Below are positions 15,941 through 41,159 of a DNA stretch of 41,159 nt, in pieces (the stretch's first letter is position 1; every line of letters starts with the position of its first letter). The translations under genes and the position numbers were made by a program. The stretch lies in assembly GCA_019448385.1 (NCBI GenBank), contig JAGTXO010000098.1, positions 1 to 41,159 on the forward strand. Reading direction: 5' to 3'. The DNA is from Diacronema lutheri (taxonomy: Eukaryota > Haptophyta > Pavlovophyceae > Pavlovales > Pavlovaceae). Below the pieces are notes generated by a model. The model had not been told where the DNA came from. It saw nothing but the letters and a program-made list of their open reading frames with translations, and ran no database searches.

Positions 15941-16026
15941 GCTGTGCGAGCGTGCACGCGACGAGATCTCGTCGGGCGTGCCGTCCGTTCGTTCAGAGCA
16001 GAGCGCGTCGGACCGGCAGACAGACG

Positions 16027-16671: not shown

Positions 16672-16771
16672 GGCGCCTCAGAGCATGGCGCCCGCCCGCT
16701 CGAGCCGGACCTCCGCGCAGCCGGACTCGCCCCGCCCCGGGCTGCTCTGGCTGGGCGACGTCGTGCGCGCC

Positions 16772-17066: not shown

Positions 17067-17246
17067 TTGTCTGCTTGGGCGCGAACGGAAAACGCGCGAA
17101 GGGTGGCGACGAAGATCGTTGGGTTGGGTTGGGCCACCGGCTCCCGAGGATTGCTTGTGGCGCTCGACTGACCGTTGGCCCAGCTTTTTTTTTTCTCGAA
17201 CCTACTGTGGAGCCGCCTGCAGCGTGATCTCCCGCGCACAACGACC

Positions 17247-19640: not shown

Positions 19641-21156
19641 GGCGCTCGCCGCGGCCGCCGTCGCCGCCGCGCGCGAATGCGCGGCGGCGGCGCGCGGTGG
19701 CGGCGGGCGCGGACGGCGCGCGCGGCGCCGGCGGCGGGCGGCGCGCTGGCGGCGGGCGCGCCGCCGGCGCGCGGTGCTGGCCAGCACCCGCCGGCGCGAC
19801 GCCCGCCGCGCCGCTCGCGCCGACGCGCAGCCGTCGGGTGCTCGCCAGCACCGCGCGCCGCGCGACCGGCCCGCGTACCTGCGCGCCCTTCTAGGGCGCG
19901 CAGGGCGGCGCCAATGCGGCCGGCGCGCAGGGGCCTCACGCTGGCGCGCTGCCCGCCGCCGCGTGGGTCGCCGCTGCGCGCGTGCCGTCGGCGCTGCCGC
20001 CGCCCGGCGTCGCGCTCGCGCCGCAGCCGCAGCCGCCGCCGCCGCCGTCGCCGCCGCCTGCCGCCTGCCGGCAAGCTGGGCAAGTGCGCAGCGGCGGCGA
20101 CGGCGGTGCGCGACCCGGCGAGCAGGCGGCGCGCCGCCGAGCCGGGGGCGGGCTCCGTGGGCGACGAGGCTCGCCCGCCACTCGCACTACTCGCGCGCCA
20201 AGTGCGCACAACGCGCCCCCCCCCCCCCCCCCCCCCCCCCACCCCACCCCCCGATGAATTTAATGCTCATACCATGGCGTCGCGCCACGGCAGTACGCCC
20301 GTGGCCCCGGCGGCCAGCCTCGCGCCGCTACGCCGTGTCGTCGCGGCCGGCGCACACAGCGAACTGTGTTTCCGCGGCACATGCCCGGCTGCTCGCGCGC
20401 TGCAAGCTTGCCGAACTGCTCGCGCTGGAATGGCGCGTTGCGGGCGTGCCCGCGCACCGCGCGTGTGCCATGCGCGTTCCGGGAGCGCCGCGCCGCGCGC
20501 CAAAGCGGCGCGCGGCGGACGTGCGGCCTCGGGCCGAAGAGGGGCCGGCGCGACCGGCCGCGAGGCGGGCGCAGACGCTCGGCGTGCCGGTCGATGCGTC
20601 GTCCAAATCCGCGTCGGGCGGATGCGCGCCTGGGCCGGCGCTGCGTGCAGTCGGCGGGGCCCGGCCACGCGCTCGGGCGTAACGTTCGCGCCTGTTCGGC
20701 CGAGGCGCACTCGCCGTCCCCTCGCGCCGGCAACGTGCGTGCGGGCCAGCACGCAGGCAGCGTACGATGCCACGGCAGCGGCGAGCGCGTCCCCGCCGGT
20801 GTGCCGCTCGGCGCCCCGTCACGCGCAACGTGCGCGCCGCCCGCTGCATGCGCACGCATACGCGCGCTGGCAGCGTGCGCAAAATTGCCCGGGCAAGATC
20901 GTCCCGCGCTCGCGCCGCCGACGCATCATTCCATGTGTCCGTTTCGGCATCTGCCACCATCCACCAGCCCTCGAAAGCCGGCTTGCGCGTGGGCGCCCGT
21001 CCGGTGCGAGAAGCGGCTCGCGTCCTCGCGCGGGGCGCCTCCGCGCCAGGCGCCCGGCGCGCGCTCGTCTTGCCGCGCCACCACGCTGATCTGCGCCCAA
21101 CCCTCGCTCGCCAATTCCCCCGTCGTCCCTGCTGCGCAGCCCGCAACAGCGCGCGC
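19641..21156 (+). other. Low-complexity region, no confident gene; possible exon near 20,300-20,682
   Basis: The first ~550 bp are Arg/Ala/Pro-coding low-complexity DNA with several hairpins. A 25-bp C run (20216-20240), followed by branch-point-like TTTAAT and a possible CGGCAG acceptor near 20300, marks the end of an intron on the plus strand. An open stretch then runs to a stop at 20682 and includes ARLLARCKLAELLALEWRV. It may be an exon of an unidentified plus-strand gene. Nothing could be assigned from 20683 to 21156. Confidence 0.3.
19878..19904. other. Perfect 12-bp-stem hairpin downstream of the helicase
   Basis: The arms CCTGCGCGCCCT and AGGGCGCGCAGG pair perfectly around a TCT loop. 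Two more hairpins lie just upstream: GGTGCTGGCCAGCACC at 19773-19788, and GGTGCT-CGCC-AGCACC at 19837-19852. Helitron 3' ends carry a short hairpin, but no CTRR end was identified at the expected place. Confidence 0.55.
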
Positions 21157-22580
21157 ATGGCGCGTGCACGGCGCGGCGCCTTGAGCAAGTTTTACGTCGT
21201 CGGTCGGCAGCCTGTGGAAGACGCGTTTGACGGCCCGATGTGGCCGGTGAGAGTGCCCGGCGTGCCGCGTGGTGAGCGCCTGCACGGCTTGCCGGGCTCG
21301 GCGCGCGCCCAGCCAGCCTCCCTCCATCCCGCCGCAAACCGTGCGTGCGCACCCCGCACACCCGGCGCTGCGCGGCGCGGCGCAGGCGCGAAAAACGAGG
21401 GCAGCGCGTGCTACACGACCGTCCTTATGCAATCGCTCTTCGCCCTGAACATGCTCCGTGCGATGCTTCGCTCCGCTTCGCGCCGTGCCAACAGCGTCGA
21501 GAGGGCGCGTTTTCGGGACTTTGGCACGCTGATCGAGGACACCAGGGCGCCGACACGGCTGTGTCTTGTGTCCGTCATCGACGTCATCTCGGGCCGTGGC
21601 GCGCGAAGGACGCCGCAGGATGCCGCTGAGTTCTTCCGGTTGCTGCTCGGCCGAGTGCCCGGGCTCGCTGCGGCCTTTGAAGCCGACACACGCGTCGGGC
21701 CAGTGCTCGAGCAGATCGCCGTGCCTTCAGAGGCCGGCGAGGGCATCGCCGTACTCGTCAGCGTCGGCGGCGATGCGGCGCGCGCGCTTGCACACGCTCT
21801 GGGGGGCGCCGCTGGGCCGCCGCGGGATCGCCACACGAACGCGGGCCACTCGGGCGTGCTCACGCCAGCCAGCATTGCTGTCGAGGCGCCGCGCACGACG
21901 CGCGGCAATGGCTCGCAGTGCAAGAACAACCGCGCGCTCGTGTGCGCGCCGCGGCTGCTGCTCGGCGGGCGCGACCACCTCCCCGTCGCCGGCGTGGTGC
22001 ACGTGGGCAAGGGGCCGATGAGCGGGCACCTTGTCGCCATCGTGCTCCGCAACGAGGCTTGGTTTCCGTGCGACGACTACAACGTGCGGCGGCGCGCACG
22101 GTCGCTCGGTGCCGCGACCGGCGGTCGAGCGCAGCCGCGACCGCCCCGTCCTCCCGCGCGGCACGCGCGCGTGGCCTGAAAGCTCGCGCGCGCGCCTGCC
22201 GCACGCACGCGCGTTGCCCGCGCAGATCTACAACGTGCCTGAGTCCGACGCGCTGGCGTGGGCAAGTGGTGCGAGCATGCTCGTTCACAGCCGGCTCGAC
22301 GTGGAGCCGTTGGACCCGGCGCTGGGCTCAGCGTCACCGCCGTCGGCCGCATCGCCTGCGTGGCCGAGCTCGGAGCCCGACGCGCCGACCTTGCCGGCAG
22401 CCTGGCCGCGGGTGCGGCAGATGGCAGCGGTGCCAACAGATGCGACGATCGGCATCGCGGAGACGGCTGCAGACATCTCTACGGCGGCGATCGGCCCAGC
22501 TGCGTGCGAGGCCCGCCAAGTTGTCTCCGTGACGCGCGCATTGCCAACAGCGGTGAGTGCGTCCTCGTCTCCGGCGGCCG

Positions 22581-22629
<49 letters not shown>

Positions 22630-22836
22630 ACAACTCTCCCTACCTTCTTCCTCCTTTCGCACCTCGCACGCGCACGCCGTCCGCTGTCCGCTGTCCGCGG
22701 CCCAAATTGCCTTGCGGAAGCCGAGCAGGCAGAGCCCTGCTTGGATGGCTCCAGCGCGCATCTTGTGGATGGCGACGCTGTGGGCGAGCACGGACGCTCA
22801 AATGTGACCAGTGGCGCGCACGTGCACGTGCGCTAA
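21157..22836 (+). CDS. Ubiquitin-specific protease (peptidase C19) domain protein, four exons
   Basis: USPs remove ubiquitin from proteins. Exons 21157-21271, 21386-22083, 22226-22552 and 22729-22836 join in phase to 415 residues. Donors are GTGAGC, GTGCGG and GTGAGT; acceptors end in GCAG. The Cys box is KNEGSACYTTVLMQSLF with the nucleophile at Cys47. TPQDAAEFFRLLL is the QDA-EF helix. The His box is KGPMSGHLVAIVLRNEAWF (His253), followed by DDYN (Asp268/269). Splicing out intron 2 brings in IYNVPESDALAW and ASMLVHSR, the usual final strand of USP domains, which supports the exon model. The domain is small for a USP and lacks the zinc-binding fingers. Intron 3 contains a 30-bp C run and a CA repeat. 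Intron 1 is a multiple of three and could be retained. Confidence 0.8.
22586..22631 (+). repeat. Poly(C) and (CA)n tract in USP intron 3
   Basis: A run of 30 C residues (22586-22615) is followed by about eight CA dinucleotides, inside the intron that ends at 22728. Confidence 0.9.
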
Positions 22837-23599
22837 CTGGACGTCGAGCGTGTGCGCCTTGTCCGCACGTGTGCACTCACGTGCGACTGCGGCGATCTGC
22901 CCGGCGTAGTAGTCCGCGCGCGCGGGAGCCGCGTCGGCAGTAGGAGCAGGATAACGTACTTGCGCCTGACGAGGACGGCGAGAAGTGCGGCTTTTCGCTC
23001 GGGGTCTACCATGCCGCCGAGGTTGGCGCTGGCGCGCGTGAGGCAGTCGGAGCGCGCTGGGCCCGGGTTGAAGGCCTCACCCCGGGGGACGGGAGGATTC
23101 AAGGCGCCGAGCCGCTGCGGGTGCGGCGGGAGGCCCCGGGCGGGTGTGCTAATGCGGCTCGATGGCCGCCTGCCGGGGGGGGGGGGGGGGGGGGGGGCGT
23201 TGGGCCGCCCGCGGAAACGGAGGTGAGCGTGTGGGAGCGGCGCGCGTCGGCGCGCGCGGCTGGCGTGCAGCACGGATAAGTCTTGTGTGGACTTCGCGGG
23301 GCGGATCCCGGTGCAGGGATTGCCGACGTAGGCCGCGAGCGCGAGCAGGGCGGGGATGAAGACGGATGATGGGGTTGGGGCCAAGGCCGCCGCACCCGCA
23401 GCTATCACGGTGGCAGCGACCGCCACGGTCAGTGCGAGGCTCGCGTGGCCGCTGCGCGGGCAGCTCGCCCGCCAGGTCCAGGAGGGCCGGCCTGCGGCCT
23501 CAGTGCCCAGCGTTGGGCATGTCAGCGTCTGCGTCTGCGGGCCCGCCACTGCGATGGCGCATTGAGCCTGGCGCACCAAAACGCAATCGGTCCGCCGAT

Positions 23600-23638
<39 letters not shown>

Positions 23639-25520
23639 CGAGGCGTGCGCGGGGGCTTGGGGTGGGCTCCGGGTGCCGGCGCTGTGCCAGCGGCGGGCTT
23701 GGTTGACGCCGTCTCGCCGGGGCCCTTGCGCCTTGCGGCGCGAGCGTCGCGGAGGGGCGTCGGCTGCGCTGGCTCCGCGTCGGCGGTGGCGTGGGGCAGG
23801 CTCTTGTGGAGGGCGGAGCGCTCGCGCACGAGTCGGTTGCCAAGGCGGGCTGTCTGCGTGCCGTTGGGCTGCGCTTGGGCAGGTAGGACCTGCGGCCTCG
23901 GGGGCGGGCGGGTTTTCGTGTTGGGCCAGGCGGCAACGCGCACCGGCCGTGTTCGCGGCCGGCAGGCGGACGTCCGCAGCGGGGCGGAGAATGCGGGTGA
24001 AGCGCTTGCACGGGCGCGGTTCGCACCTGGCGGCCAGGCGATCACGAACCGTTGGGTCGCCCGGCTGTTTGGTGGAGCCGAGGGCAGCAAGGATAGCGAG
24101 CTTGGCCGCCTCATCGGTGACGAGCGGCACTGTTGCCCAGCTCTGTACCTCGAAGCCCTGGATGTGCAGGCGTCGGGGAAGTTCCCGGCAGCGTCGCCTG
24201 CGTCCGTCGAGAGGCGGACCGAAGTCGCGCCCGTGCCCCCGTTGGCGACACCGAGCTCTCGCTCGTTCACACCGGCCCGCCGACGCGGGCGCGTGGTGCG
24301 CGCGCGTTGGGTGCGTGTCTGCCTCGAGCAGCGTGCCCAGTCGCAGTGTGGGCGCGTGTCCGTCTGCCTCAAAACGCCACGTGGAGGGGAAGGCGCGGGG
24401 CGGGCTCGCCGAGGAGGTGCCGCCGCTCGCTGCCACCCGGCGCGGGCTCGGGGCAGCCGTCTTCGGGTGCCGCGCTCTTCGCGCCATGCACGAACGTTCC
24501 GCCGCGCTCGCAGCGCGCGAGCGCACACACAGAGCGCGCGGCGACCCCGGCGGGGGCAGTGCGTCCCGGTGGCACTCGCGGGCGCGCGCCTGGCCTGGGC
24601 GCAGCTGGGCGCGTTGCCGCCCGCGCAGCGAGCCGCCCGCGCGCCTCGCCGCGCGCGCGCTTCGTCGCACGCGTGCGCCCTGCATGCACGCGCACAGCGC
24701 GCGGCGGCTCGGCGCAGTGCAAGGCAGAGCGTGCTGCAACGGTTGCGAGGGCGCGCACGCGCGGCGCGGCGCGCCCCTGTGTGGTCGCCTGCGCGCGGCG
24801 CGTGGTCCGGACGCAGCTCGGTGGCGTGATGCCGTTCGTGCAACACAGTGCGCGTGAGAGCCGCACGTGCACACCTGCAGTGCAACGCGGCATTGCGCGC
24901 GTTGCGTGGGCGGAGCGCGGCTGGATGTGCTTGAGGTCGCGCAGCATGCCGCGCGCCGCGCGCTGTGCGGCGCAGCGAGTCGGCCATGCCCCTGGTCCTC
25001 GTCTCCGGGGGGGGGGGGGGGGTGGTGGTGGCAACCAGGATCCGCCAGCGCGTGGTGGGCGCCGTCCAACTCCCAGCCAGGATGCGCCCCGTTCTTCCCC
25101 GACACTCTCCGTCCAAACCCGCCGCCCAGCCTGCCGCCGCACCCGCCGCCAACGCCGCCGCGCACCCATCCGCCGAGCTCACCTCGCGCGCGCTCGCGCT
25201 CACGCTGCGCGACGAGGCTGCGCAGGCCGGCGCGCGGCCGTGCAGAGCAGCGCAGGCCGGCGCGCGGCCGCGCGCGCGCGCTCACGTTGCGGCCGCGCAG
25301 CGAGCTTTCGCCGCGTCGCAGCCCCTCCGAGCAGCCACGATGCACGCCCCCGGAGGACGTTGGCCGCGCTCGGAGGCCGCGCTCGGGCGCGCAAAGAGAG
25401 GCGGCGCGGGCAAACGAGTAGGCTCGGCGCGCTGGCGGGTCCTGGTTGTGGGAGAGCGGGGCATTCTCCAGGGCATCATGTAAATTCTCCCAAGTATCAT
25501 CCGGGCCGCCATCCGGACAC
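22798..25520 (-). CDS. Probable spliced minus-strand gene(s), structure unresolved
   Basis: Three G runs on the plus strand (23175-23197, 23601-23638, 25007-25022) are poly(C) runs on the minus strand, the hallmark of sense-strand introns here. Coding-like blocks on the minus strand include: near 24200-23990, GFEVQSWATVPLVTDEAAK and LAILAALGSTKQPGDP; near 23480-23300, two probable membrane segments, LALTVAVAATVIAAGAAAL and SVFIPALLALAAYVG; and near 22990-22798, DYYAGQIAAVARECTRADK ending at a TGA (22800-22798). That end would overlap the last USP exon by 39 bp, tail to tail. Exon joins could not be settled and the family is unknown. These may be one gene or two. Confidence 0.3.
23175..23197 (-). 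repeat. Poly(C) tract (minus strand)
   Basis: A 23-bp G run on the plus strand, taken as an intronic polypyrimidine tract of a minus-strand gene. Confidence 0.8.
23601..23638 (-). repeat. Poly(C) tract (minus strand)
   Basis: A 38-bp G run on the plus strand, of the same kind as the neighbouring tract. Confidence 0.8.
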
Positions 25521-25541
25521 TGACGTGCCCACAGTCTGCAG

Positions 25542-28500
25542 ATGGAGGACTCCGTGAAGGACGCTTTGCCCGGCGGGCGGGGCGGCTCGGACAGTTTCTC
25601 GCTGGCCCTCAGCACCATTCTGTCGCCGGGAGATACCCACCCCCACGTGGTCCCATCCACTTGCCTCATCGCCCTGCTGCGTTACGCGGATTTCGGCACG
25701 AGCAGGGTTAGGGTGGGCGACACGGGGTGCTCGCAGCATGCGCTCAAGGTGGCGCTGCGCAACCTGCGCAAAGCATGCGCGGATGCGGACCGGTTTGGGC
25801 AGGTGCTCGTGGTCGTGCTACCGCTCTGCCTCCGCGCGTCCAGCGGCCTCGTGCACTGGACGGCGGCGTACCTGCTCCTCGCGCCGCCCGCGCAGCGCGG
25901 CGCGCCGCCCGGCGCCGCGCTCGCCCTGCTCGCCGATTCGCGCACCTTGGGCAACGGCGAATCGGCGTACGCCACGGCGGCCGGCGTGCTCATCAAGAAG
26001 CTTGCGCAGCGCATCGGCAGAACAGCGCCGCCCATCGATGCCTTCAAGGCGCCCCCGCAGAGTGGGGCCGCGTGTTGCTTCGCCGCGGCAACAGTCGCGG
26101 CCGAGGTCGTGGCGAGCGCATCGACGCTCTACGGCCGCCGCGCGAGTGTCCTTGTCGACATCAAGAAGGCTTTGGACGCGCGCCTCGCGCGCCTCACGAC
26201 GGCCGCGTACGAGGAGACCCGCGCGCGCACGCTCCGCGCCGCCATCGGCGCTCTGCTCGGCGACCGCGCCAGGCGCTTCGGCCCGTTCACCCGCGAGGCC
26301 GCGCGGCTCGCCGAGGCCGCGCGGCTCGCCGAGGCGTGCGATGCCAGTGTCGGCGGATCCGCGCCCGACGGGCTGCTGCAGGCCGTCGAGGCGGCGCTGC
26401 GCGCGCCCGACGACCGCATCGCACGCACGGCCGCGCTCGACGCGCTCACGGGCGCTGCAGGCCGCGCGCTGTCGACGGCGGCCAGGCCGCGCGGCGCGGC
26501 GGCGCCAAGGCCGCCGTCGCGAGCGCCACCGCCGCGTGCGCCGCAGCGGCGCGCCGCCTCGGCGTGGGGGCCCCGACCATTCAGCAGCCTCGGCGGGGGC
26601 GAGGGCGACGGGGACGATGGCGACGCCACCACCGCTGACGACGGGGAGGGCGCGGAGGACGGGGACGACGACCCCGCGGGCGCGGCGGCTGCGGCGGTGG
26701 CGACGGGCACGGCGGCGACGAGCGCGGTGGCGGCGGGCGCGGCGCCAACCTCGCCGGCGGCGGCGGACGGCGGTGGCTCGGCGCCGCTCGAACGCCGCTG
26801 CGTCTACACTGCGCCTGATGAGGGCGACGCGGACGCGCGCGTGTACGACGCCAAGGACCCCGAGCAGCTAAAAGCGGGCAGGGCGCGGCTACGGGCGAAC
26901 AGCGGGCGCGCGCCCGCCGTGGTCGACACGCTTTTCGCGCACGCGACGGGCACGATCGTCACGCGGCAGCGCACGGAGGGCGTGACCGGCGCGGGCATGC
27001 ACCACCTCGCCGCCCCGACGCAGGGCGCGGGGTACGGTACCGTCGTGCGGGCCGAGCTGGGCGAGCCCGGCTTCGCGGGGACGACATGGCACATGACGTC
27101 GGGCGTGGAGAACCAGCCGCGCGCGGTACGAGCGGCCGCGCGCGCGTACGCGCACGACGGCTGGGGCGGCGTGTACAATGCGCACGAGGACTTTGCCGCC
27201 TTCGAGGGCTTGCCGCGGCTCGCCGCGCCCGAATCGCTCGCGGCCATCGCCGGCGGGTCGGCGGACGCGGTGTTCTGCTGGCGGTCCGGCCGGTCCGTCA
27301 TCGGCGAGGTGACGACGGTTCACTTCAATGGCGACCGCGCCGCCGCCATCGACCACGCGCGGGCGCTGCGCGTCAGGCCCGATTGGCGCTCGCAGCCCAG
27401 GATCTACGAGGCGGCGTGCGGCGCGGAGGGCACGGTGCTGCTCGTGTGGGTCGTGCCCGACCGTCACAAGAACCCGCGGCTGGACTGGGCGCCGATTCTC
27501 GTCGTGATCCACCTGCCCGCCGACCCCGACTGGCTCGCGCGCGCCACGCCGGCGATCGCGAAGGCGCGGCGCGAGGTCGAGGACGGACGCGCGCGCGCGG
27601 AGGCGCGCGGCGTGCCGCAGCACCTCGCCTACACGCTGAGCCCACGCTTCCGAGGCACCGCGCCGCGCGGAGCCGCGCGCGTGCCGCCGCGCCTCGGCGC
27701 GAGCGACGCGCGCGAGGCGCGCGCGCTCGCGGCGCTCGAGCCGGCGCTCATGTTCGCGCCGGCCTGGCGGCGCGCGGTGCGCGCGGCGAGCCGCGCCCCC
27801 GGCAGTGGCGCCGCGGCCGTCGAGCGCGCGCTCGCGCGCCTGCACAACGCGCTCGAGCCCGATGACGAGAGCGCGCCCGAGTCGACGCGCGTCGCGCCGC
27901 TCGCCGCCGCGCTCGAGCAGTCGGCGGGCTGGCCGGCGGGCACGGCGCGCATGGCGGCAAGCGTGACCAAGGGCCCCGGCGTCGGAGATGGCGCAGGTGG
28001 CGACGAAGTGACCAAAGTGGAGGAAACGGCGAAGACGAGCGGCGACGGCTGCACCGGCACGCCTCCTCTGCGCCCGGCCGCGCGCGCGGCCGGCGCGGCG
28101 GACGACGGAGGGGCGGCGGTCGTGGCGGGCGTCGAGGGCGAGCGCGACGCACTCGCCAAGACGGGTGCCGGCGGCTGCGACGACGACGCTCGCGAGCCGC
28201 TGTCGGCCGGCAAGCCCGGCGCACTCGCCGCCGCGGCGACCGTCGGGGGTCTCGGCGAGCTCGTCGGCAGCCTATGCGCGTGGCTGGCGCGCGGCGCGGC
28301 TGGCGGCGCCATCGCGGCCACCTCCCCCGGGACGGCCGCGCGCGGAGCAAACGGCACGCCGCAGCGCGCCGAGCCGCCGGCCGCCGGCGATCCCGTCGCT
28401 CCGCACGCGCGCGTCGCCGCTGCGGCGCCCTTGGCGGGCAGCGCGGCGGCGCCGTCGTCGGCCGCGCGCGACGCGCAGCGCGGCGTCGCGGGAGTCGACG

Positions 28501-31500
28501 CGGCCGCGCACGCGCACGCGCGCGACGGCAGGCGGGCGGCACGGCGGATGCGCGAGCACGAGGGGGCGGTGCACAGGGCCTTCCGCATGTCCCTCTGGCG
28601 CGACGCGACGTTTGTCGAGTTCGTTGAGAAGCTGCGCCCCGACGGCGGCGCGCAGCTGCTCGCGCGCGAGCCCACGCGGCGCGCGGCGGCGGTGCTGTGC
28701 GAGCTCGCGCGCGGCCGCGACGGCGCGAGCGGCGCGGCCGGGCTGCTGCACGAGATGAGAGCCGCCGATGCGCGCGCGCGCGAGGCCGCCAAAGCGGCGG
28801 AGGCAGCGCGGCCTGCGCACGGGACGCTGCGCATCGTGGCAACCGTGGCGCTGGGCGGTGCGGTCTTCGCCGGCATGTCAGCGCTGGTCGTTGCTTGCGC
28901 GGCGCGCACGGCGACCGGTGCGCTTTTTGGGGCCCGCCGCCCGCGGGCGGCCGCGCGCGGAGCCGACGACGCGCTCGGCACGCTGCAGCGCGCCGAGCCG
29001 CCGCCCGCCGACAAGGGCAAGCGCAGGCGCGCCAGAGCCAACGACGACCCCGTCGACGCGGCGCGCAAGGCCGTGGGCAAGGCGGAGGGCAACTGCCGCA
29101 AGGCAGCCCGCCGGCTGCACCTCGCTGCACTGGGCGAGGAGGAGGCGCAGCAGCGCGTGCTCGACGCCGAGGCGGCGGAGCAGCTGGCGCGCTCGCGCGA
29201 GCCGGCCGGCGGCTGGGTAGGCAGCGCGCGCGCGCGCGCGCGCGCGCGCCCCGCCGCGCGCGCGCCCGTCGATTGGCGTGCGCGCAGCGCAGAACGGCGC
29301 GCCAGCTCCGTCACCTGCGCGCCGCCGCGCCCGTGCCCCTCGCGCGCAGGGGCGCCCTGCGGACCTGCGGCTGCAACAGGCGCACTTTGGCATGCGCGAA
29401 GATGCCGACGCGGAAGTGCGCCGCGCGCACGAGGCGCTGCGCCGGGCGAGACAGGGTGTGGCGTGCGCCAAGGCCAGCGTGCGGCAGATGGAGGCGGCGT
29501 TGCTCAACGCGACGCGCTGCGCCACCGCGGTGCTCGCGCCGCGTGGCGTGCCGGAGGGTGACGAGCAGGCCGCGGCGAGAGAGCAGGCGGCGCTGGACCG
29601 GGAGGCGCCGCCGGCCGCGCAACGCGCGGCGCCGACGGCGCGCTCGCCCTCGGAGCCGCCGTCCGAGTGGGGCCCGCCAGCGGTCGGCCGGCGCCCGACG
29701 CCGCGTGCACTGTCGCACGCCGCGGGGCGCGGGGACGACAACCCGTTTGCGCCGCTCGCAACCGTCAGCGGCGATTGGTCGCCCACGCCGAGCTCGCGCT
29801 CGCCGTCCTCGCCGCCGCGGCAGCCGCCGTCCGACCGCCGCAGCGCGCAGCGTCGCAGCGCGCGCGCGCGGCCGCCGAGGCCGACCGTTTCGCCCGAGGA
29901 CGCGCTCGCAGCCGAGCGCCAGGCGCGCGCGCTGTCGGAGCAGGCGGAGCAGAGGCGCGCCAAAAAGGCCGCCGCCAAGGCCGCGCGCCGCGCCGCGCGC
30001 GCCGCCGACAAGCGGACGGCGCGCATCGTCCACGCGTGCGTAAGCGCCGCCTTGCGGCGCGTCTGCACGAGCGTCGCCACGGGCACGCCGCTCGCCGTGC
30101 TCCGCGAGCGCGCCGAGGGGCCGCGCGCGCCGAAGCCCGCGCCCGCGCCGCCACGCCGCGCAGCGGACGGCGGCCGCGCGCTCCGCCACGCGCGCCGTGC
30201 GGCCGCCGCGGCGGCGGAGCGCGAGGCGGCGGTGGCGGCCGACGCCGACGAGCGGTTCGAGCGGCAGCCCTCCGCCGCCCGGTTCGACGGCGGCGATGGC
30301 GGCGGAGGCGGCCACGTCGAGGCGAGCGCGCGACCGCGCGCCGGCGAGGCCGGCGAGGCTGGCGCGCACGGCGCGCCTGGCGCAGCGGGGACCCCGGCGG
30401 CGTCGCTCGCGTCGCGCAGCCCGTGTGATGCGCGCCGCACGGCACGCCTCCCGCACGCACGCGCCGCAGCCACCTGCGCACGCAACGGCGGCTGGGGTGG
30501 CAACGTCGGCGGCGACGTGTGCGGCGGTTGTTTCGGCGGCGGCGGCGTCCGTCGCGACGCCTGCGGCGGCGGCGACGCCACCTGCGGCTGCGGCGATGGC
30601 GGCGTCGGTGCTGGCGCTGGCGAGGCCCCTGCACACGGTGCGCCGGCGCGCGCGACGGCGTCGCGCTTGCTGCGCTTGCTCGGCGCGCCACGCGCCGTGC
30701 TCGGTGCGATGGCGCACGCCGCGGCCGTGTTGGCGCGCGGCGTGGCCGCAGCCGTCGCTGGCGTGCGCGCCGCCGCGCGCGCCGTGCGGCGCGCGCGCCG
30801 CCGAGCGCCTCGCGCGCGCCGCACGGCTGCGCGGCGGGCTCGCGGCCCGCCGATGCGCGACGTCGACGGCGCCCTGCGGCCCTCGCCGTCCTGGTTGCGC
30901 ACACGCCTCGTCTGCGGCCGGCGCCTCGCGCCTCTGCGCCGCGCGGGCGCGCGCCCGCCGCCCGCACACGCCGCGCCGAGTTCCCGCGCGCGCGCTGCGC
31001 AACCCGACAGCGACGCGCCGGCGTGCGCGCCGCGGCGCTCGGCGCCTGTCGGTGCGCCGCCGCGCGCGCGTGGCCTGCGCGCGGCGCGCGCACGGCGCTT
31101 CCTCGACGTCGCCGGCCGCGCGGCGCGGAGCGCGCGCCTCGGCGCGCGCATCACGCGCCAGCGCACGCCGGGTTCGCCATCGGAGCCCTGCACGGCCGAG
31201 AGCGGCGACGGCGCGGGCGCCGGCGGCGTCGGCGCGGCGGCGCCTGGCGCGGCGACGATGCGCGCCACCGGCGCGCGCGCAGCGCGCGCTGCGGCGGCGG
31301 CGGTCGGTGGCGCCTCGCGTCTCGCGCGCCGCGCGATGGCAAGCGCCGCCGCCGCTGCCAACTCCATCGCCGGCGCTGCCGCCTCCACCGTCGCCGCCGC
31401 CGCCGTTGCCATCGGCGCGGCCGTCACGTCACCGGCGTTCGCCGCGGCGCGCGGCATGGCGGCCGCATGCGTCGCTGCCTGCGCCCGCCCCACCGCCGCG

Positions 31501-33797
31501 CAGGCGGCCGCGTCGCGCGCGCTCGGCGCGCTCTTCGTGCTCGTCGACGCGGCCGACGCGGCGGGCGACAGCGACGCCGCGCTCGGCGCGCTCGCGGCCG
31601 CGGTCGACGCGACGGAGCTGCGCCCGCCGCCGGCCTTTTGGCGCGCGGGCCGCGCCGCGGCGTACGCACCGCGTCCGCCGCCCCTCGACTCGGCGCGGCC
31701 GCGCTACAACCGGCGCGCGCGCGCACCTAGCCCTCCCGTCGCGGCCGCGCGGCGCAATCTCGCGCGCGCGGTGCGCGAGCTCACGCGCGCCGCGCGCGCT
31801 GAGCGCGAGCGCGCGCCGGCGCCGCGCGGCGCGCGCGGCGGCGTGCTCCACGCGCTGCGCGCGTCGCTCCCCGTGCACGCGCGTGCCGCGCTCGGCACGG
31901 ACGCGGAGCTGCGCGCGGACATCGCCGCGTTCGCGCGCGCGCGCCGCGAGCTGCACAGCCTCACCGACGCCGAGGTGGCGGCGCTCGCGCGCCCGGACGG
32001 GCCGCCGCTGCCCGTGCGGCTCGCGTGCACGGCGGTCGCGCGCGCGCGCGGCGTGACCGTGCTGCTCGACATCGTGCCGCGCGGCGGCGGCGCGCCCGAG
32101 CGGCTCGTGTGCCGCGCCCGTCGCCGCGGCGCCGCCACGCGCACGCCACGGCCGACAGCCGCCGTTATCGCGCGCGCGCCTTGCATAGCGGCGCGCGTTG
32201 GCCACACTGAGCCGGCGCGCGCGTGCGCGGGCGGATCGATCGGGGTCGCGCGCCTCCGTTCAGCGCGCCGCCGCTCTTGGCGTGGGGCGCGGCTCGACGT
32301 GCACACCCGCGAGCGGCTGGCCACACCGGTGCCAGGCCACGTCGTGGCCTGCGCCGCCGCCTCGGCCATCGGCGCGTGCGTCGCTCGCGCGCGGCTTGGG
32401 CTTGCACGGCTGGCGCGCGCGTGGCCCTGCGCCTCCGCTCCACTGGCCGCTGCTGCTGTCGCCTTCGCGCCTGCCGCCGACGGTGTTTTCTGCGCCCCGC
32501 TGGGCGCTCCTGCATCCGCCTTCGCGCCTGCCGCCGACGGTGTTTTCCCCGCCGCACTAGCCGCTGCTGCATCCGCCTTCGCGCCTGCCGCCGATTTTCC
32601 CGCCCCACTAGTTGCTCCTGCACTCGCCTCCGCGCCTGCCACCGACGGCGTTTTCCCCGCCCCGCTAGCCGCTGCCGCTGTCGCGTCCGCGCCTGCCGCC
32701 GCGGGCGCGTCTTCCGCCCCACCAGCCATCGCCGCCGCGCCCGCCGCCAACGCGCGCACCGCCAACGTGCCCGTTGCCAACGAGGCTACCGCCACCGAAC
32801 CAGCCGCCCTTGAGCTTCCCCTCCAACCCGCCAACTCGGCGCTGCTTGCGTGGGCGGGCGACGCGGCTGCGCGCCGGCTGGCCGCCGCCGCCGCGAGCGC
32901 CGGCCTCCCGCAGGCAGAGGTGGAGCGCATCGCCAGCGGCGACATGCTCGCCTCAACCGTCGACGCGTGCTGCGAGGTCGTGCTGCGCGTGCACGGGCAG
33001 GCCGGCGGCGGGCATGTCTGCCACGTGCCGCTCGCCGCGCAACCCGCGGTGTTTCAGGACGACGCCGAGCGCGCCGCGCTGCTGCACCGCCTGCGCAGCG
33101 AGGCGACAACGCAGGCTGTCATCGGCGTGTGGAGCCCGTCGGACGAGCGCGGCGGCGCGGGCGGTGACGACGGCGCGCAGCTCGCCTCCGGCCATTTCAC
33201 CGCGTTGCGCCTTGTGCGCGTCGCGCGCGCGGGCGAGCATCGCTACGACGCGGTGCTCGTCGACACGCTCGCGTCGCCCTGCAGGCGGGCGCTCGTGCTC
33301 GCCAAGGCGATAACTGCCACGCTGCACGCGGCGGGTCTCGACATTTCGCGCGTGCGCCGCGCGCGGCTGCTCGACGAGGCGGCGCAGCGTGGCGCGACGT
33401 GCGGCCTCGCGATAGTGGGCGCGCTCAACGACGCGCTCGCCGCGGCGGGCTGCTCGTCCGCGCCGCGCACGTTCAGCGTGGCGGACATGTACGCTGTCGG
33501 CGAGCGCCTCCGCGTCGCGCTGACCGGCGCGGCCGGCGATCGTGCGCCGGGCGGCGTCTGCGCGGTCACGAGCGCGGTGCGCGGCGGGGGCAGCCCCGAT
33601 GGCGCCGAAACGCCGCCGCAGACGCGCGGCGCCAAGGCCGCCGCTGGCGTCACCGCCGCCGCCACCGCCGCCGCCACGCCGCCGCCGCCCGCGCTGGGCG
33701 CCGCCGCCGCCGCCACCGCCGCCGCCGCCGCTGCTGCCGCCGCCGTGGCCGCGCCGCCACCGCCGCCACCGCCGCCGCCGGCCGGCGACGCGGGCGA

Positions 33798-33870
<73 letters not shown>

Positions 33871-36800
33871 GCCGCGCGCACGTTCTTGAAGCTCGCGCCC
33901 AGGGCGCGCGCGGCCGCCTCGGCGCGTGAGGCGTTGCGCGCCGCGTGTGCGCGCGCGGACGCGGCGGCGTCGTCACACGCGTCGGCGCCGCACGCGCCCG
34001 CCGGTGCGCGCCGCCGGCGGCGCGCGGGCGCAGGCGAGCTGGCGCTCGCGGCTGCGCGCGCGCTCGCCTCGACGGAGCACGGCGATTTGACGGACGACGC
34101 GCTCGAGGCCGCCGTCGAGCAGGAGCTGGGCGACGAGCGCGGCCAACTGCTGCTGTGCACGCGGGGCGCAGCGGCGCAAAGGCCCGCGCTTTGCCGGCTC
34201 CTGAAGCACGCGTGCGCGTCGGCGCGCGCGGCGAAGCGCGCGCAATTCACGGTGTTCGTCGTGCGCGCGGCCACGCGCGGCGAGCGGGGGGGCGCCGCCG
34301 CGAGGCGCGTGGACTCGGTGGTCGAGCTGTCGTGCGCGCTGCACGAAAAGGCGGGCGCGCTCGGCGGCCTCCAGAGCGTCTGTGTGCGTGGCTTTGCCCT
34401 CGAGCGCCGCCGGACACTCGACGGTGGCGCCGAGGCCGGCGCGTCCGCCATCGGCCAGGACGAGCAGGTCGAGGCAGAGGCGGGCGAGGCGTGCGTCGCC
34501 GGCGTGACGATGGCCAAGCAGCTGCGTCAGTTTGCCGAGCAAGCTGCCCGCGACGACGTGCTCTTCCGCGTCGCCGTGTCCGAGGCCGACGCCCACGCCC
34601 GGCTGGCGCGCGTTGCGGGTGACGATGTCGGCGCGTACAGCGTCGTGCTCGCAGTCGCCGGGCTCGTCTGGCTGGCCAAGGCCGACGAGGTTGCGCCGGC
34701 GGCCGCCCGGTCCGCCGCCGCGCCGCCCGCCGCCCCGCCTGCTGCCGCCACGTCCGCCGACGCCGAGCGCGACGCCTCGCCTTCCGACCGCCTGCGCGCG
34801 CTGACGCTCGCCGTGCGAGTCGCGCTCGCGCGCGGCGTGCTGCGCCACCTCCTCGCCGACGCGTCGCCGGGCGCGTCCGCGACCGCTGGCGGTAGTTGCG
34901 CGACGCCCGTCGAGGCGGCCACGTCCGCCGCCGCGCCGCCCGCCACGGGCGTCGTGACGAGTGGCGTCGCGGCGGGCGCTGTGGCGGCCGCACCGGCTGC
35001 TGCGGGCGGTGCGACGGCGGGTGCATCGCCCATCACGCGGCCGGCGAAGCGCGCGCGGCGCACGCTCACCGCCGCTCCAGCCGCCTCGGCCGTTGCGGCC
35101 GCTGGAGGCGCACGCGCGGGCGCACGCGGCGCGGCCGGCGCGCCTCGCGCGCGCGCCGCGCGCGCGCCGGCCGAGTACGTCTGGCTTGCCATCGCGCGCC
35201 GGATGCTGGCGGCGCGACACGCGGCGGCCGCGGGCGGCGACTTTGTCGCGTCGTGCGTCGCCGCGATGCAGGCCGAGTACGGCGACGGCTGTGCCGTCGT
35301 CGTCGGCGACGCGCCTGATGACGCCTTGGTCGAGGCTGCGGCGGCGGCGCTGCTCGAGGGCAAGCACGCGGCGGTGAGCCTCGGCTGCGTCGACCGGCCG
35401 GCGGTGCTCGTCGTGCAGCGCGCCGTGGACGCGCCCACGTCGCGCGTGCACGGGTGGTGCGCGCACGCGGCGGGCGCCGCCGAGTTTGACGAGGGCGCCG
35501 CGCACGGCGTGTTCAACGCGATCGTCGAGCGCGCGTGGGCGCTGCGTCCGGACCCGGCTGACGGCAGCCCGCCGCCCACGCGCACGTGGGAGGTCGAGCA
35601 AATCGCTGGCGACGCGCCCGACCAGGCGGGCGTGGCCGCGCTGCGCGTGCTCTACGCGCTCGTCGCGGCGCACGGCCGCTACCGCTCGGCCGCCGCGCTC
35701 TTTGGCGCGCTCGCGCAGCTGCACGCGCCCGACGCCGCCGGCGCGCGCGCGGAGGTCGTCGCGGCGGCGTGCGCGGTGCCGCACGGCGCGCGGCCGGGCG
35801 CCGCGCCGGCGGCCGCGCGGGACGACGCGAGGGAGCGCGCATGGGAGGGCGCTCAGATCGCCGCGCTCGCCGTCGGCGCGGACGCTGCGCGCAGGCGTGT
35901 CGCGCCCGTGCGCGCGCTCGTCGACGCGCTCGGCACGCCACCGACCTCGGCGATCACGGGCGGGCCGGCGGTCCGGCTCGCGGGCGCGGGCGACGGCGGC
36001 CACGGTGCACGGTGGGTGGGCGGGCAGGCGGCGACGCCCGCCGAGCAGCTGCCGAGGGAGCTGCTGCGCGCCTACCACGAGGCGGTGCTGTGCGTCACGC
36101 CCGGCAGCCTCCAGCTCGGCCCGGCGGCGCTCGACGCGGTCACGCGGCCGCGCGAAAACGACACGCTGGAAGGCCTCCTCGCGCGCGTCAGCTGGCAGTG
36201 CGGCGCGAGGGCGAGCACGTGCGCCATGCTCGCCACGTTTTCCGAGCAGGCGGGCACCGGCTCGCGCGTCGCGCTCAAGGCCCTCCGCACGAGCTCCGAC
36301 CTGACCGGGCTGACGGCGGCTGCGGTCGGGCAGCAGGCGCCGCAGACGCCGCCGCCGCCGCTGCTCGTGATGCTCGGCCGCTGCCCCAGCCCGCTCGTCG
36401 GCGGCGGCCTCTTCCCGCCCGACCGCGCGACGGGCGAGCCGGCGGTGCACGCGGCGACGTCCGAGCTCGCCGTCGAGCTGCTGCGCGACGCGCGCGCGCT
36501 GGCCGGCACGGACGGGCGGCTCGTCGTGCTGTGCCTCGAGGCGTCCAACCCGCTCTGGTTCTGCCCCAAGGTGCGCGAGCTCGAGCTGCCGCGGACGCGG
36601 TCGGACGGCGTGCGCGCGTCCGGCTGCACCTGCCCTGCGACGTGCAGCGATGCGCGCGGCGCGGCGGGTGGCGCTGCCCGCGGCGCATCGACGCGGCCGG
36701 CGGCGCGCGCGATCAACAAGGCGGTGCTCGACCACTTCGTCGCGCTTTTCGGCCGCGAGGGCTTCGCGACCTTTGAGTTTGCGGGCGGCGGCGAGGCGAG

Positions 36801-39800
36801 CTGGCTGTGCGACAGCGCGGCCGGCACGACGACCGTCGCGGCGTGCGCGTCGCTGCCGCCGCGCATGGGCGATGGGCAGCTGGCCATCCGGCGGCACACG
36901 CTCGGCACGGGCGCCGACGCGCCGGCGCACGCCGTCGTCTCGCTCCGCGTCGCGCACGTGAGCCACGCCATCCGCCGCGCGGCGGACGACGGCGGCGCGC
37001 GCGCCGAGCGGATGGCGCGCGCCGCGCGCGCGTTTTGCGATGTGGCGGCCGCGCTGCGCGTCGACGCGATCCTGGCGGAGGTGCCCGAGGACCGCCCGAC
37101 GGGCACGCCCTTCCTTGGCGGGCTGCTCGAGTTTTGGAACAAACGCCACGGGAGCTCGACGGCGCCAGCCACGCTCGCGCTCGGAGACGTGCGCGAGGTG
37201 GCCAAGCGGACGGCCGACGCAGCGGCCGGCCGAGCGGACGAGGTCCCTGCGGCTGGCCGTCCGCAGGTCGCGGCGCGCGCGTGCGCTGGCGCGATTGGCG
37301 GCGGCGCGGGCGCGGCGGGCGCCTCGGACGCTGCGCCCCGTGCACTGGCGGGCGCGTCGGGTGCGCGCACGGACGGCGGCCCTGCCGACGCACCGCGCCA
37401 GCTGGAGAGCCGCTACGGCGAGGCGAGCAAGCTCGACCTACCCCAAGATTCCACTACGGGCTGCGTCCTCGACGCTCGCGAGGCCCAGGACCGCGCGCGC
37501 GTGCCTGCTGCGCCCGACGGCACAGCGCTGCGCCGCGTGCTCGACGCCGTCGGCGCGGGCGCGCCCGCGCAGCGCAGCCCGCGCTGGCACGACGAGCGAT
37601 GGGAGGAGGTCACGGGCAGCAAGGTTGGCGACGTCGTGAACGACAACGCCGGCGTCGCGCACGAGACGCTCACCGACGAGTACGTGCACCGGCGGCGGCG
37701 CGAGGTGCGGACCAAGGCGACGACCGCGGGCATCCTCGGCGAGGCCGTCGCGCTGCGCAAGCTGGCGGCCGCGTACGGCATCACCGTCGTGTGCAACCTG
37801 CCGATGGTGCGTGCGGACCCGCACGACAAGAGCGCGCCGTTCGCCTTCTCGCCGGACGGGCTCGCGATCCTCCCCGAAAACAACGAGCAGGTCCTCGTCG
37901 AGGTGAAGACGCTCACCAAGGCGGGCGCCACGGCGCACGAGGACGGGCCGCCGCAGCCGCACCGCGATCAGCTGCAGCTCGGCATGCACGTCCTCGGCGT
38001 GAGCAAAGCGCTCTACGTGCAGTACCTCAGGCACGAGGACCGGATCGTCGTGCACGTCGTGACGCGCGGCGCCGGCTGGCTTGCATTCGCGCAGCCGAGG
38101 GTGCAGGCCTTCTGGGCGCGCGTCGTCGAGCGGCGCGCGCGGCTCGAGCGCGCGCGCGCCGACCACCCGGCTGCGAGCCGGCGGCACCGGCGGCAGCAGA
38201 CGCCGGCCGGGCCGCCGCTCGTGCTCGCGCTGGACGGGCGCATCCCCGCCGCGCGCGCCGCCGCGCTGCACGCCGTCGCGCACGGCACCGCGAGCGCGGC
38301 GGCGGTGACGGCGGCGGCGGCGACGGGCGACGCGACGGCGTTGCAAGACGCGATCGCGGCGCTGCGCGCGCCCGTCGGCAATGCGGCGATCGCCAGCGCA
38401 GCGCGTGCGGAGGGCGCGGCCGTCGAGCGGGCGATCGCGTACCTCGGGCAGCCGGCGGGCGACGCCGCCGCCCGCGGCACGGCCGAGGCGGCCGAGGAGG
38501 AGAGGACGGTCGACGCCGACATCTGCGCGTTGCTGCACCAGCTCGGCGCGAGCGTGGCGCACGTGCACGTCGAGGACGCGGATTGCGTCACGCGTGAGCA
38601 CTGGGGCGAGGCGGTGCTCGCTGCAGCGGACGACCCGTCGAGCGCCCCCGCCATTTCGAGCGTCATCGTCGCGCACATCGTGCGCCTCGCCGGCTTTGGC
38701 GTCGAGCTCCCGCAGTCGATTCGCGTCGCCCCCAGCACGGCCGACTGGCACGAGGGCTGGCTCGACGTGCAGTGCGTGCTGCTGCGCACGCGCCGGCGCG
38801 GGCGGCGCGACGACGACTTTGTGGCCGTCGTCAGGCGCGGTGGGCGCTGGTTTGCGTGCGAGCCCGGCCGCGCGCGGCGGCTGCAGTGGCGGTCGGTCCT
38901 ACGCCGCGCGCGCGGCGGCGTCGACGGGACCGGCGAGGAGGCGTTCGCGATCGTCTACGTGCGGCGCGGCGACGCGGCCGGCGACGCGGCTGGCGACGCG
39001 CAGGCCGCACGGGCGCGCGGCGGGCGCGCGCGCAGGCGCACGCGCGGCGGCACGCGCAAGCGCAAGCGCGGCGCCTCCGCCGGGCTCGAGGCGGCCGCGC
39101 CCGCCGGCGCGCCGGCGGGCGCTGCTCACCGCCCGCCCGCCAGGCGTGCCACGGTCGCCGCGCGCACCACGCGCTCTGTGACCGACGCGCGGCACTCGGC
39201 GCCTGCCGCCACGGTTGCACCTGTCTTCGACTGGCGCGCCGGCCGCCCGCCCCCTGCCGCCGCCGCCGCCGCCAAGCGCGGCCAGGCGCTCGAGCCGGGG
39301 CAGTTCGCGCGGCCGCGTGGGCGCGCGCCATGGGGCAAGGTCTGGGACAGAGTCTCGGGTGCGTGGGCGGACAAGCCGACTGGTGCTGCCGTCGCCGCCG
39401 CGCCGCCGCCGCTGCCGCCCGCCGCCGCGCCGCCGCCCGCCGCCGCGCCGCCGCCCACCGCCGCGCCGCCGCCCGTCGCCGCGCCGCCGCCCGCCGTCGC
39501 GCCGCCGCCCGCCGCCGCGCCGCCGCCGCCGCCGCCACCGGCGGCGCTCGGCCGCCGGCAGCACGTCGGCGCGGGCGGCAGCGCGGCGGGCCGGCGGCTC
39601 GCGGCCATCGCACGGCGGCAGCGCGGCGTGCGCGCGCCGCCGCCCGCCGCGCGCTTCCTCGCCACGCTGCCGCCACCGCCACGCGACGGCCTCGCGCGCA
39701 CGAGCAAGCAGGCGCGCGCGAGGCGCAACGCGGACGGACGGCCGGCGCACGCGCGCGCGGCCAACGCGCGCGCCTTCTACCGCGGCGTGGAGCTCGGCGT

Positions 39801-41159
39801 GCACGCGACGCGCGCCATCGTCGACGCGCGCCACGCCGACCTGCCGCAGGCCGTCTTCGTGGCGGAGGCGCGGGCGATCGTCGCGCGCTCCGCCGGCGGC
39901 GGCGCGCTGCTCGCGCCGGACGACGTGCGCGACCTGTGCGACGCGCAGACGGACGCCGATCGCGCTGCGATCTGGGCGTCGGTGGGCGCGCACGAGGCGA
40001 CGCGCATCTTCGCGCTCGTCACGCGCAACGCGAGCTTGGCGGGCGCGGCGCTGCTCGTGCTGCACACGCCGGCGGGCGCGCCGGCGCGCGCGCTCGGGCT
40101 CGTGGCGACGCGCTCGCGCGCGCCGTCGACGGGCGCGCCGCGCGACGCGCACAGGGCGCTGGTGCAGCGGTTGGACGTGCTGATGGACGCGATCGCCGCG
40201 GCGCGAGGCGCGTCGCCGCTCGAGCTCGAGCTCGCGCTCGCGCCCGAGCCGCAGAGCGCGTGCAACGCGCGTGCGGCCGCGCTGCTCTGCCTGCAGGCCG
40301 TCGCGGACGCGAGCGGCCGTCCCGCCGCTGAGGACGCGCTGGCCGCGCTCGACGACGCGCGCGGCATCGACCGGCACTGCCACGCCGTCCGGCAGCAGAT
40401 CGAGGCGAAGCTCGCGTGGCGGCGCGCCGACGGCGCCGTCGGCGTTGACGGCGCCGACGGCGCGCCCGCGCTCGCGCCTGCCGCCGCACCGCCGGCGTGC
40501 GCGCCGGCGCACGCTGCCGGCGAGGCGGCGGTCGACCAGGCGATCGTCACGCGGGTGCGCGACGCGCTGCGCGCGTGGGCGACGACTGGCACCGCGCCCA
40601 GCGCGGCGGTGCTCGACGACGCCTGCGCCGCGTACACGGCCCGCGCACGCGCGCGCAAGGACGCGCGCACGGCGCTGGGCCCGACGCGCGCGGCCGAGCT
40701 GCTCGCCGCGGCCGCGCGCGGCGGAGCCGACGGGGCGGATGCCGCGCGCCGCGCTGCTCGGCGGCACGCCGCGCCTGCTCGTCGTGCTCCTCTGCGTGCC
40801 CGTCGCCGCGCCGTCCGGCGAGCCGCCGCGCCCGGTCGGGCTGCTCGTCGCCGACCGGCCGACGGACGACTCGCGCCCGGCCGCGCTCGTGCGCTACGAC
40901 TTTGCGCCGCTCGACGCGGACGTGGCCGTCGCGGTCGGCGCGCATGCCGTCGCGCTGGCCAGTGCGATCTGGCCGCTGCTCGCGGCCGAGGGGGAGCCGC
41001 GGCCATCGCCCGTCGTGCGCTCGCAGCCGCGCGGCGGCGACGATGGCGCGCGTGCGCTCGCAACGTTCGCGTGCCTCGACGCGCTGATGACCGCCAGCGT
41101 CGGCGCGCACGGCCTCGCGGGCGGCGCGGGCATGCTGCCCGCGCTGGTCGCGCGAGGCG
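25542..41159 (+). CDS. Giant multidomain protein: Ulp1-like proteases, YqaJ-like nuclease and degenerate DUB-like modules (3' end outside window)
   Basis: Exon 1 (25542-29216) codes 1,225 residues. An intron (29217-29349, donor GTAGGC, acceptor GCGCAG) switches frame, and exon 2 stays open without a stop to about 40,735. Coiled-coil sequence runs across the junction, supporting the splice. Module A is Ulp1/C48-like, with His105-Trp, Asp132, Gln173 and Cys178/179. Residues 1094-1120 form a membrane helix. Module B has His2507, Asp2530, Gln2571 and Cys2576 (QRGATCGLA). A YqaJ-type PD-(D/E)XK core follows at about 3969-4148: SPDG (Asp4061), EVK (Glu4076, Lys4078) and QLQ (4099-4101). A Josephin-like module lies near 4279-4440. 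Long Ala/Pro linkers separate the modules. Near 40,735 the coding frame shifts by one and another Ulp1-like module continues to the edge. The start is the first ATG after a CTGCAG that could itself be an acceptor, so further 5' exons are possible. Confidence 0.75.
29217..29349 (+). other. Intron of the giant gene with (GC)n tract
   Basis: This 133-bp intron is bounded by TGG|GTAGGC and CGCGCAG|GGGCGC. A GC dinucleotide run lies at about 29225-29250. Without removal, the frame of exon 1 becomes Arg/Cys-rich and stops at 29561, whereas the frame of exon 2 is blocked by the TAG at 29218-29220. Confidence 0.7.
32440..32705 (+). repeat. Imperfect ~45-60-bp tandem repeats in the giant gene
   Basis: Five imperfect copies code units around (A/S)APAADGVFPAPL, forming an Ala/Pro-rich linker before protease module B. 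Confidence 0.75.
33797..33868 (+). repeat. (GCC)n tract coding a poly-alanine run
   Basis: About 23 consecutive GCC codons within a 300-bp Ala/Pro-rich linker between module B and the next domain of the giant gene. Confidence 0.9.
39403..39543 (+). repeat. Repeats coding (AAPPP)n linker
   Basis: About nine 15-bp units of the GCCGCCGCGCCGCCG type code an Ala-Pro linker between the Josephin-like module and the last Ulp1-like modules of the giant gene. Confidence 0.85.

Follow-up and report, generated by a model that had tools for sequence, protein, structure and literature searches.

The window analysed here is the whole of contig C41 of the haptophyte alga Diacronema lutheri (41,159 bases). 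From position 14,357 to the contig end it is a single truncated copy of a high-copy mobile element, and the giant plus-strand coding frame that starts at 25,542 lies inside that copy. A sequence-only reading had presented this frame as a lone gene for one protein of more than 5,100 residues; the frame stands and is longer still (see below), the lone-gene framing does not. The features on which the argument depends are the following.

14357..41159, plus strand: truncated copy of the element, which begins at its left junction and is cut off by the contig end; other copies have their right end ∼ 3.7 kb further on.
14357..14363, plus strand: TATATAG, the target motif at the left junction, judged host-derived and not element-coded from a comparison of 39 rows.
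14364..14396, plus strand: left end of the element proper, GGCGCGGTCC... (203 genomic matches at ≤ 2 mismatches; reversed control 0).
25542..29219, plus strand: N-terminal part of the giant frame, frame 3, ∼ 1,226 codons (open frame, codon usage).
29224..29265, plus strand: (GC)n run, site of the change from frame 3 to frame 1 in this copy (repeat, 2 nucleotides longer in one of five copies).
29320..41157, plus strand: central part of the giant frame, frame 1, open to the contig end (open frame, codon usage; extra base near 40749).
25854..26075, plus strand: Ulp1-like triad 1, residues in the order H, D, Q, C (motif only, without profile support).
33193..33402, plus strand: Ulp1-like triad 2, same order (motif; residues kept in a ∼ 8% diverged copy).
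37585..37995, plus strand: YqaJ/RecE-like exonuclease core with GxxxE, D, EVK and Q motifs (profiles and residues).

The assembly searched comprises 43,492,796 bases in 103 contigs; the published account of the D. lutheri NIVA-4/92 genome gives 43,502,671 bp, 103 contigs and 73.25% GC, with repeats making up 22.9% and long terminal repeat (LTR) and long interspersed nuclear element (LINE) retroelements as the main annotated classes (PMC8379373). A 3-kb query from the giant frame matched at ∼ 100% identity at all 40 places scored, the window included (the best 40 of 314 candidates). A 5-kb query (20.5–25.5 kb) matched over its full length at 29 of 30 scored places, again including the window, and over 4,661 bases at the thirtieth. 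On the left the boundary is sharp: of 39 other long matches, 26 start precisely at window position 14357 (query position 2057) and the others at query positions 2043–2150. The right boundary was set by the point at which copies L017 and L018 diverge, at L017 position 5,822. Searching the genome with the two ends (≤ 2 mismatches each) gave 203 left and 211 right ends, and none with reversed-pattern controls. Positions 1–4,800 of the window have only short weak matches elsewhere in the genome and no other long copy, as expected of a single-copy host flank.

For pairing, 100 of the 203 left ends were compared with 96 of 100 right ends (those up to C49:31032). A right end on the same strand within 45 kb was found for 71 left ends and not for 29; the pairings use 69 distinct right ends, three left ends on C27 sharing one. 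The paired copies fall into size classes of ∼ 31.0 kb (32 copies, 30.9–31.1 kb), ∼ 29.2 kb (9, 29.1–29.45 kb), ∼ 26.3 kb (8, 26.0–26.95 kb) and ∼ 21.6 kb (13, 21.4–21.65 kb), which together cover 62 of the 71; nine have other lengths. Their summed length is 2.01 Mb; leaving out the overlapping C27 entries lowers it to ∼ 1.96 Mb, 4.5% of the genome. Multiplying the mean length by 203 left ends gives, as a rough extrapolation, 5.7 Mb (13% of the genome). Ten contigs among those seen (C1, C3, C5, C6, C8, C10, C12, C13, C32 and C49) start or stop ∼ 10 bases or less from an element end; many of the assembly breaks are thus probably due to the element. No description of such a giant element was found in literature listings and abstract openings, though the repeat library of the genome paper may hold an unnamed entry.

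The left junction was compared in 39 rows, which represent 36 distinct copies (three occur twice). TATATA is present in 36 of the 39 rows (33 of the 36 copies), preceded by C in 32 of 39 distinct flanks and followed by G in 19 rows, C in 19 and T in one, after which the sequence continues GGCGCGG. Thirteen rows (12 copies) are identical over the first 1,450 bases of the element and still differ at this variable base, with G in eight rows (seven copies) and C in five; one of the five C rows reads AATACGC where the others have TATATAC. As the seventh base differs among otherwise identical copies, TATATA and that base most likely come from the target, and the alternative that TATATA is encoded by the element was rejected. 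The right end reads ...CCATCTATAC, with terminal TATAC in 20 of 21 paired copies, and is followed by G in 15 of 22 distinct flanks. Of the 21 junction pairs one stops at a contig end, leaving 20; outside TATA, left and right flanks share at most one base in 19 of these, the exception being copy C9:2907808 with a 13-bp repeat. Beside TAT there also occurs in this genome a short repeat ending ...TGACGTAAGCGCCGTTAG (203 sites in G000; L095–L110), sometimes in head-to-head pairs, which resembles a small inverted-repeat transposon. The natural neighbour of this TGACGTAAGCGCCGTTAG repeat is TAT, and some giant-element copies directly adjoin the repeat.

Within the element the gene order is Pif1-type helicase, ubiquitin-specific protease (USP), giant frame. 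In frame 3 no stop occurs between 25,524 and 29,561, and in frame 1 none between 29,221 and the edge, a run of 3,979 codons. Codon usage and G+C content at third codon positions (GC3) put the coding signal in frame 3 as far as ∼ 29.3 kb; beyond it frame 1 takes over, weakly at ∼ 29.6–32.7 kb, a low-complexity stretch. The longest rival frame within the giant coding stretch is 1,154 amino acids. Frame 1 is open over 34.5–40.5 kb in all eight close copies (L009–L016, L009 being the window). These data bear out a plus-strand frame that begins at 25,542, keeps to frame 3 until ∼ 29.2 kb and, from ∼ 29.3 kb, follows frame 1 almost to the edge. The sequence-only reading had also proposed one short intron and one late frameshift. 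The frameshift was recovered: compared with copy L017 the window has a single additional base near 40,749, and frame 2 scores best from 40.76 kb. The intron did not hold up as such: the break at 29.2 kb lies in the (GC)n run, which is 2 nucleotides longer in copy L111; that copy reads straight through, whereas four of five copies, including the window, do not. The frame change is either an intron that removes the run or slippage that breaks the frame in most copies.

Because the contig end cuts the window, the giant frame is longer than first thought. In other copies the coding run appears to continue beyond this point, through a chromodomain, to a C-terminal Fanzor nuclease. With two joins assumed, the total is ∼ 1,226 + 4,420 + 570 codons, or ∼ 6,200. 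YqaJ, chromodomain and Fanzor are the best-supported of the predicted domains, the latter two lying beyond the window. The YqaJ-like nuclease core of the earlier reading was confirmed by a match to PHROG 434 (RecE-like exonuclease, E 6.2e-15) and by the presence of the PD-(D/E)XK residues; the Pfam YqaJ match has E 0.0017, but at 19.1 bits is under the cut-off of 22. Around 27261 (plus strand) the stretch ADAVFCWRSGRSVIGEVTT is a candidate for a second PD-(D/E)XK-like domain in degenerate form; it has no Pfam profile match. The chromodomain is found in L017 at ∼ 2257–2409 (1.6e-12), and the Fanzor exon at ∼ 3693–5414, after ∼ 100 nucleotides resembling a GT...AG intron.

The Fanzor exon matches the TNB domain (PF07282, E 4e-6, 27.3 bits versus a cut-off of 26.3). 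The catalytic motif published for Fanzor proteins is D-X(125,275)-[TS][TS]XX-C4 finger-X(5,50)-RD (PMC3627910). The L017 exon has the catalytic motif complete, as one match to a form of this pattern, and three relatives (P0004, P0005 and P0006, with 99%, 46% and 43% identity) fit a looser form and all retain the catalytic D, E and RD. P0005 and P0006 reach 11.4 and 23.7 bits against PF07282, under the cut-off, and the NCBIfam TnpB model gives the element's Fanzor 14 bits, far under its cut-off of 100. On the Fanzor PADLOC returned Cas12f matches at 0.0065 and 0.02 and Csx1 at 0.023; a Cas11e-like match at 0.005 was judged to be chance. A profile search of PDB with three Fanzors gave a weak Cas12f match (0.17) among unrelated ones.

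Support for protease modules is of another kind. H-D-Q-C triads start at codons 105 and 2518 of the strung frame, and the pattern matches exactly these two sites. In block shuffles, two or more triads arose in 0 of 2,000 with the strict pattern and in 9 of 2,000 with a loose one; the pattern was written after both sites had been seen, so the result is indicative only. Triad 2 retains H, D, Q and C in the diverged copy C17, where its core (pN/pS, the ratio of nonsynonymous to synonymous differences per site, 0.60) is not more constrained than the whole stretch (0.51). None of ten slices of the giant frame matched C48 in Pfam, a search of PDB sequences for C48 found nothing, and a home-made C48 profile (five host protease stretches plus SENP1) had no credible match in the giant frame. 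Leave-one-out profiles of five putative modules (the two triads and three look-alikes chosen by eye) recovered none of the five held-out modules, the catalytic motifs fail to align in a MAFFT alignment of the modules, and AlphaFold, run on the triad-1 module without relatives, gave an unusable model (predicted local distance difference test, pLDDT, 42). A Josephin profile had no match in 37201–40200 or 38401–39201. With profile, leave-one-out and structure tests all giving no support, we keep the two triads as a lead and drop the tandem modules and Josephin. Thus, of the protein once described as built of repeated ubiquitin/SUMO-protease modules, two complete triads survive as catalytic-motif matches without a recognised C48 fold; the degenerate Ulp1 relatives and the Josephin-like module do not, and slice-wise Pfam searches returned YqaJ (under the Pfam cut-off, as above) and neither C48 nor Josephin. 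The giant protein might possibly act as a binding scaffold or a self-processing polyprotein.

Part of the giant frame is likely to be transcribed. The Pavlova lutheri protein P0003 in EukProt (425 residues) matches the window over its full length at 99.8% (36226–37500) and copy L011 at 100%, and its label (scaffold, coverage) suggests a transcriptome origin, making expression likely. Among the best 8,000 candidates scored, the N-terminal module had no homologues and the YqaJ region had them in the same species only. An Rfam scan of the window gave no match.

The remaining coding and structural features of the element lie upstream of the giant frame.

16355..16675, strand not assigned: 89-nucleotide inverted repeat, 98% complementary, in the 5′ region of the element (repeat search).
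17172..19620, plus strand: Pif1-type helicase, its reading frame passing from 3 to 2 to 1 at breaks close to 18.47 and 19.43 kb (profile matches).
20683..22179, plus strand: ubiquitin-specific protease (UCH/USP; PF00443, 4.3e-08).

The helicase matches PIF1 in frame 3 (3.7e-14) and PIF1 and Pif1_2B in frame 2 (1.8e-24 and 6.2e-13); the final frame-1 piece was assigned by eye. Neither break has a clear intron, and at the first there is no insertion or deletion relative to C17. The N-terminal ∼ 225 residues (17247–17924, plus strand) we take to resemble the single-stranded DNA-binding protein of large viruses, although no profile matches them. The USP carries a Cys box, NEGSACY, at 21,394 and a His box, GHL, at 22,024. 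In many element copies a further copy of the block with the 89-nucleotide repeat, in inverted orientation, lies ∼ 0.5 kb away (window region 16308–16690).

Copy C17 (21.6 kb, diverged) provided the comparison for selection. It retains the helicase, the USP and the giant frame from 32.8 kb onward; window 22.6–32.8 kb is missing, so that the giant frame is without its first two-fifths, and its N-terminal region is a different one. That region (L115 3856–7899) contains Gln-Arg-Glu repeats and is Ala/Pro-rich, and the identity of C17 to the window is a mosaic, 90–95% in the middle and ∼ 98% in the 3′ part. Over 32,837–33,990 the giant frame has pN/pS 0.55 (Fisher p 0.0045), compared with 1.16 and 1.16 in the false frames. 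The USP gives 1.05 in its own frame and 0.71 in another (p 0.06); the helicase gives 1.17 in its own frame, from only 21 differences. Among the parts tested, purifying selection is therefore shown for the giant frame only, from one copy pair and one stretch.

Instead of one protein, the giant coding run could encode several from adjacent genes, for example a nuclease and a separate Fanzor. The Fanzor exon does follow a change of frame, annotation of the relatives P0005 and P0006 starts at exactly that point, and the joins are predicted from DNA. Against separate genes, frame 1 contains no stop between 29.2 kb and the last exon; over this distance most 300-base bins have coding scores above zero and no long gap intervenes, and the Fanzor exon opens in L017 with GTG, not ATG. 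We regard separate genes as possible, though doubtful.

Taken together, the end of the window is, in our judgement, probably a copy of a young giant D. lutheri transposon of a new kind that bears a Fanzor and whose core product is the giant protein; how it moves we infer from its ends and predicted domains. We also infer that the element depends on the giant protein and not on the helicase or USP. Several results weigh against this account. TATA stands at both junctions, so a 4-bp TATA duplication might be read there; this is disfavoured because the right-hand TATAC is constant while the left base varies among otherwise identical copies. Folds of the termini are no clear improvement over shuffles (z −0.19 to −1.45); for the last 150 nucleotides, where a structured guide RNA would be expected, z is −1.13, and 26 of 200 shuffles fold equally well. 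No Rep, DDE or tyrosine/serine recombinase Pfam match was found in the frames scanned, which within the element begin at 17.2 kb; 14.4–17.2 kb has no consistent coding signal. The joins at 29.2 kb and before the Fanzor (∼ 100 nucleotides, L017 near 3,590–3,690) are assumed to be spliced or slipped, and two AlphaFold models gave no usable result (pLDDT 42 and 41). The eight close copies (0–0.9% different) show no sign of selection, with pN/pS 0.99 (17 synonymous and 43 nonsynonymous changes, eight multi-change codons excluded). Since the helicase is frame-broken and neither it nor the USP shows selection, both may be passengers of the element.

The strongest competitor as to the type of element is a Helitron-like rolling-circle transposon, its Rep diverged beyond recognition or hidden inside the giant frame and the giant frame captured as cargo. 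The Pif1-type helicase, the lack of a duplication beyond TATA and a short inverted repeat near the right end are all in keeping with it, and Fanzor is known in Helitrons (PMC3627910). However, the ends GGCGCGG... and ...CTATAC lack the 5′-TC/CTRR-3′ signature and the target is TATATAS (S, G or C), not A|T. Within the scope given above, which includes the helicase frames, no Rep (HUH) match was found, and a loose HUH-like motif search gave three weak matches in the giant frame and no YxxKY-like motif. Finally, it is the helicase that is frame-broken without selection, whereas the giant frame shows it. We consider a Helitron unlikely.

A tyrosine- or serine-recombinase element (Crypton, Starship or IS607-like) recombining at TATA would account for the short TATA common to both junctions and the absence of a longer duplication. 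The near-invariant right TATAC (20 of 21) and a left S that varies among identical copies fit a target origin better than the exchange of a shared core. No recombinase domain was matched in the frames scanned, nor did a crude tyrosine recombinase motif search find one, though a diverged enzyme is possible; this explanation we hold to be quite improbable. An integrated virus (Polinton, virophage or giant-virus fragment) would fit the size of ∼ 31 kb, and a nuclease, a Pif1-type helicase and Ulp1-like proteases do occur together in such viruses. No relatives appeared in three of three viral-contig scans, which reach close relatives only; the frames scanned contain no capsid, polymerase or integrase match; long inverted terminal repeats were not seen in the ends, and there is no duplication beyond TATA and none of 6 bp. 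A viral origin is thus very improbable. Spread of a giant host gene by segmental duplication explains the copy number only and is scarcely credible, since the flanks of the copies examined are unrelated, their ends sharp and their target motif fixed.

For the giant Fanzor-bearing transposon we envisage mobilisation in which DNA is cut and joined on the 3′ side of TATATA(G/C); the simplest route would be a single-stranded or rolling-circle-like one, as in IS200/IS605 or Helitron elements, which likewise create no duplication. Unwinding and trimming of the DNA would fall to Pif1 and YqaJ. The Fanzor, using a transcript that crosses from the right end into the flank, might cut the empty target, which would be repaired from an element copy. 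TATATA would then be its target-adjacent motif; published Fanzor motifs such as 5′-CATA sit 5′ of the target (PMC10432273). The chromodomain may guide the complex to chromatin or anchor it there, and the Ulp1-like parts, if real proteases, could release the Fanzor from a giant precursor or strip SUMO from host silencing factors. More speculatively, the element could represent a new eukaryotic transposon superfamily that relies for every step on a single giant protein, at once exonuclease, chromatin reader and RNA-guided nuclease and also carrying protease-like modules. Cutting guided by RNA beside TATATA(G/C) would place the new copies, making transposition in effect Fanzor-guided, and the element would recently have overrun about a tenth of a compact algal genome. 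This wider proposal is tentative, and we would sooner expect it to fail in some part than to hold entire.

Outside the element, the host flank contains on the minus strand (4747–12063) an open frame of 2,439 amino acids with R2R3-like Myb repeats (PF00249, 4e-31, two stretches), unusually large for a Myb protein if it is a single exon.

Probably one element makes up a large share of a published, compact haptophyte genome, and several contigs break at its ends. The biological role of Fanzor nucleases is given as not known (PMC10432273). Here a Fanzor is apparently joined to a giant protein under selection, which may show how such enzymes help giant elements to spread. The family is young and has ∼ 200 copies, its exact target motif can be tested as the adjacent motif of the nuclease, and the algal host is culturable.

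Among the most similar known systems, Polintons (Mavericks) share the size class, and an Ulp1-like protease is one of their hallmarks; in the present element we saw neither long inverted repeats nor a duplication of 6 bp, and the frames scanned gave no match to PolB, integrase or capsid. Starships are likewise giant, and they and Cryptons lack classical inverted repeats; the present element differs in having no tyrosine recombinase that we could find, ∼ 200 copies in a compact genome and an algal host. Helitron and Helitron2 elements are alike in the Pif1-type helicase, the absence of a clear duplication and, in some, a Fanzor, but ends, target and Rep domain are unmatched here and the helicase is without selection. 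IS200/IS605 elements (TnpA plus TnpB) also insert beside a fixed motif on one side, without duplication, and have an RNA-guided nuclease partner; the D. lutheri element is eukaryotic, 31 kb long and without a TnpA-type HUH domain that could be found. In the Fanzor1-bearing eukaryotic transposons described by Bao and Jurka (2013; PMC3627910), a Fanzor is likewise carried on a multicopy eukaryotic DNA element, algae included. Compared with that description, no transposase is recognised in the element reported here, which is 31 kb long and inserts at TATATAS without a clear duplication, and its Fanzor apparently forms the C-terminus of a giant frame in which a YqaJ exonuclease and a chromodomain are also encoded.

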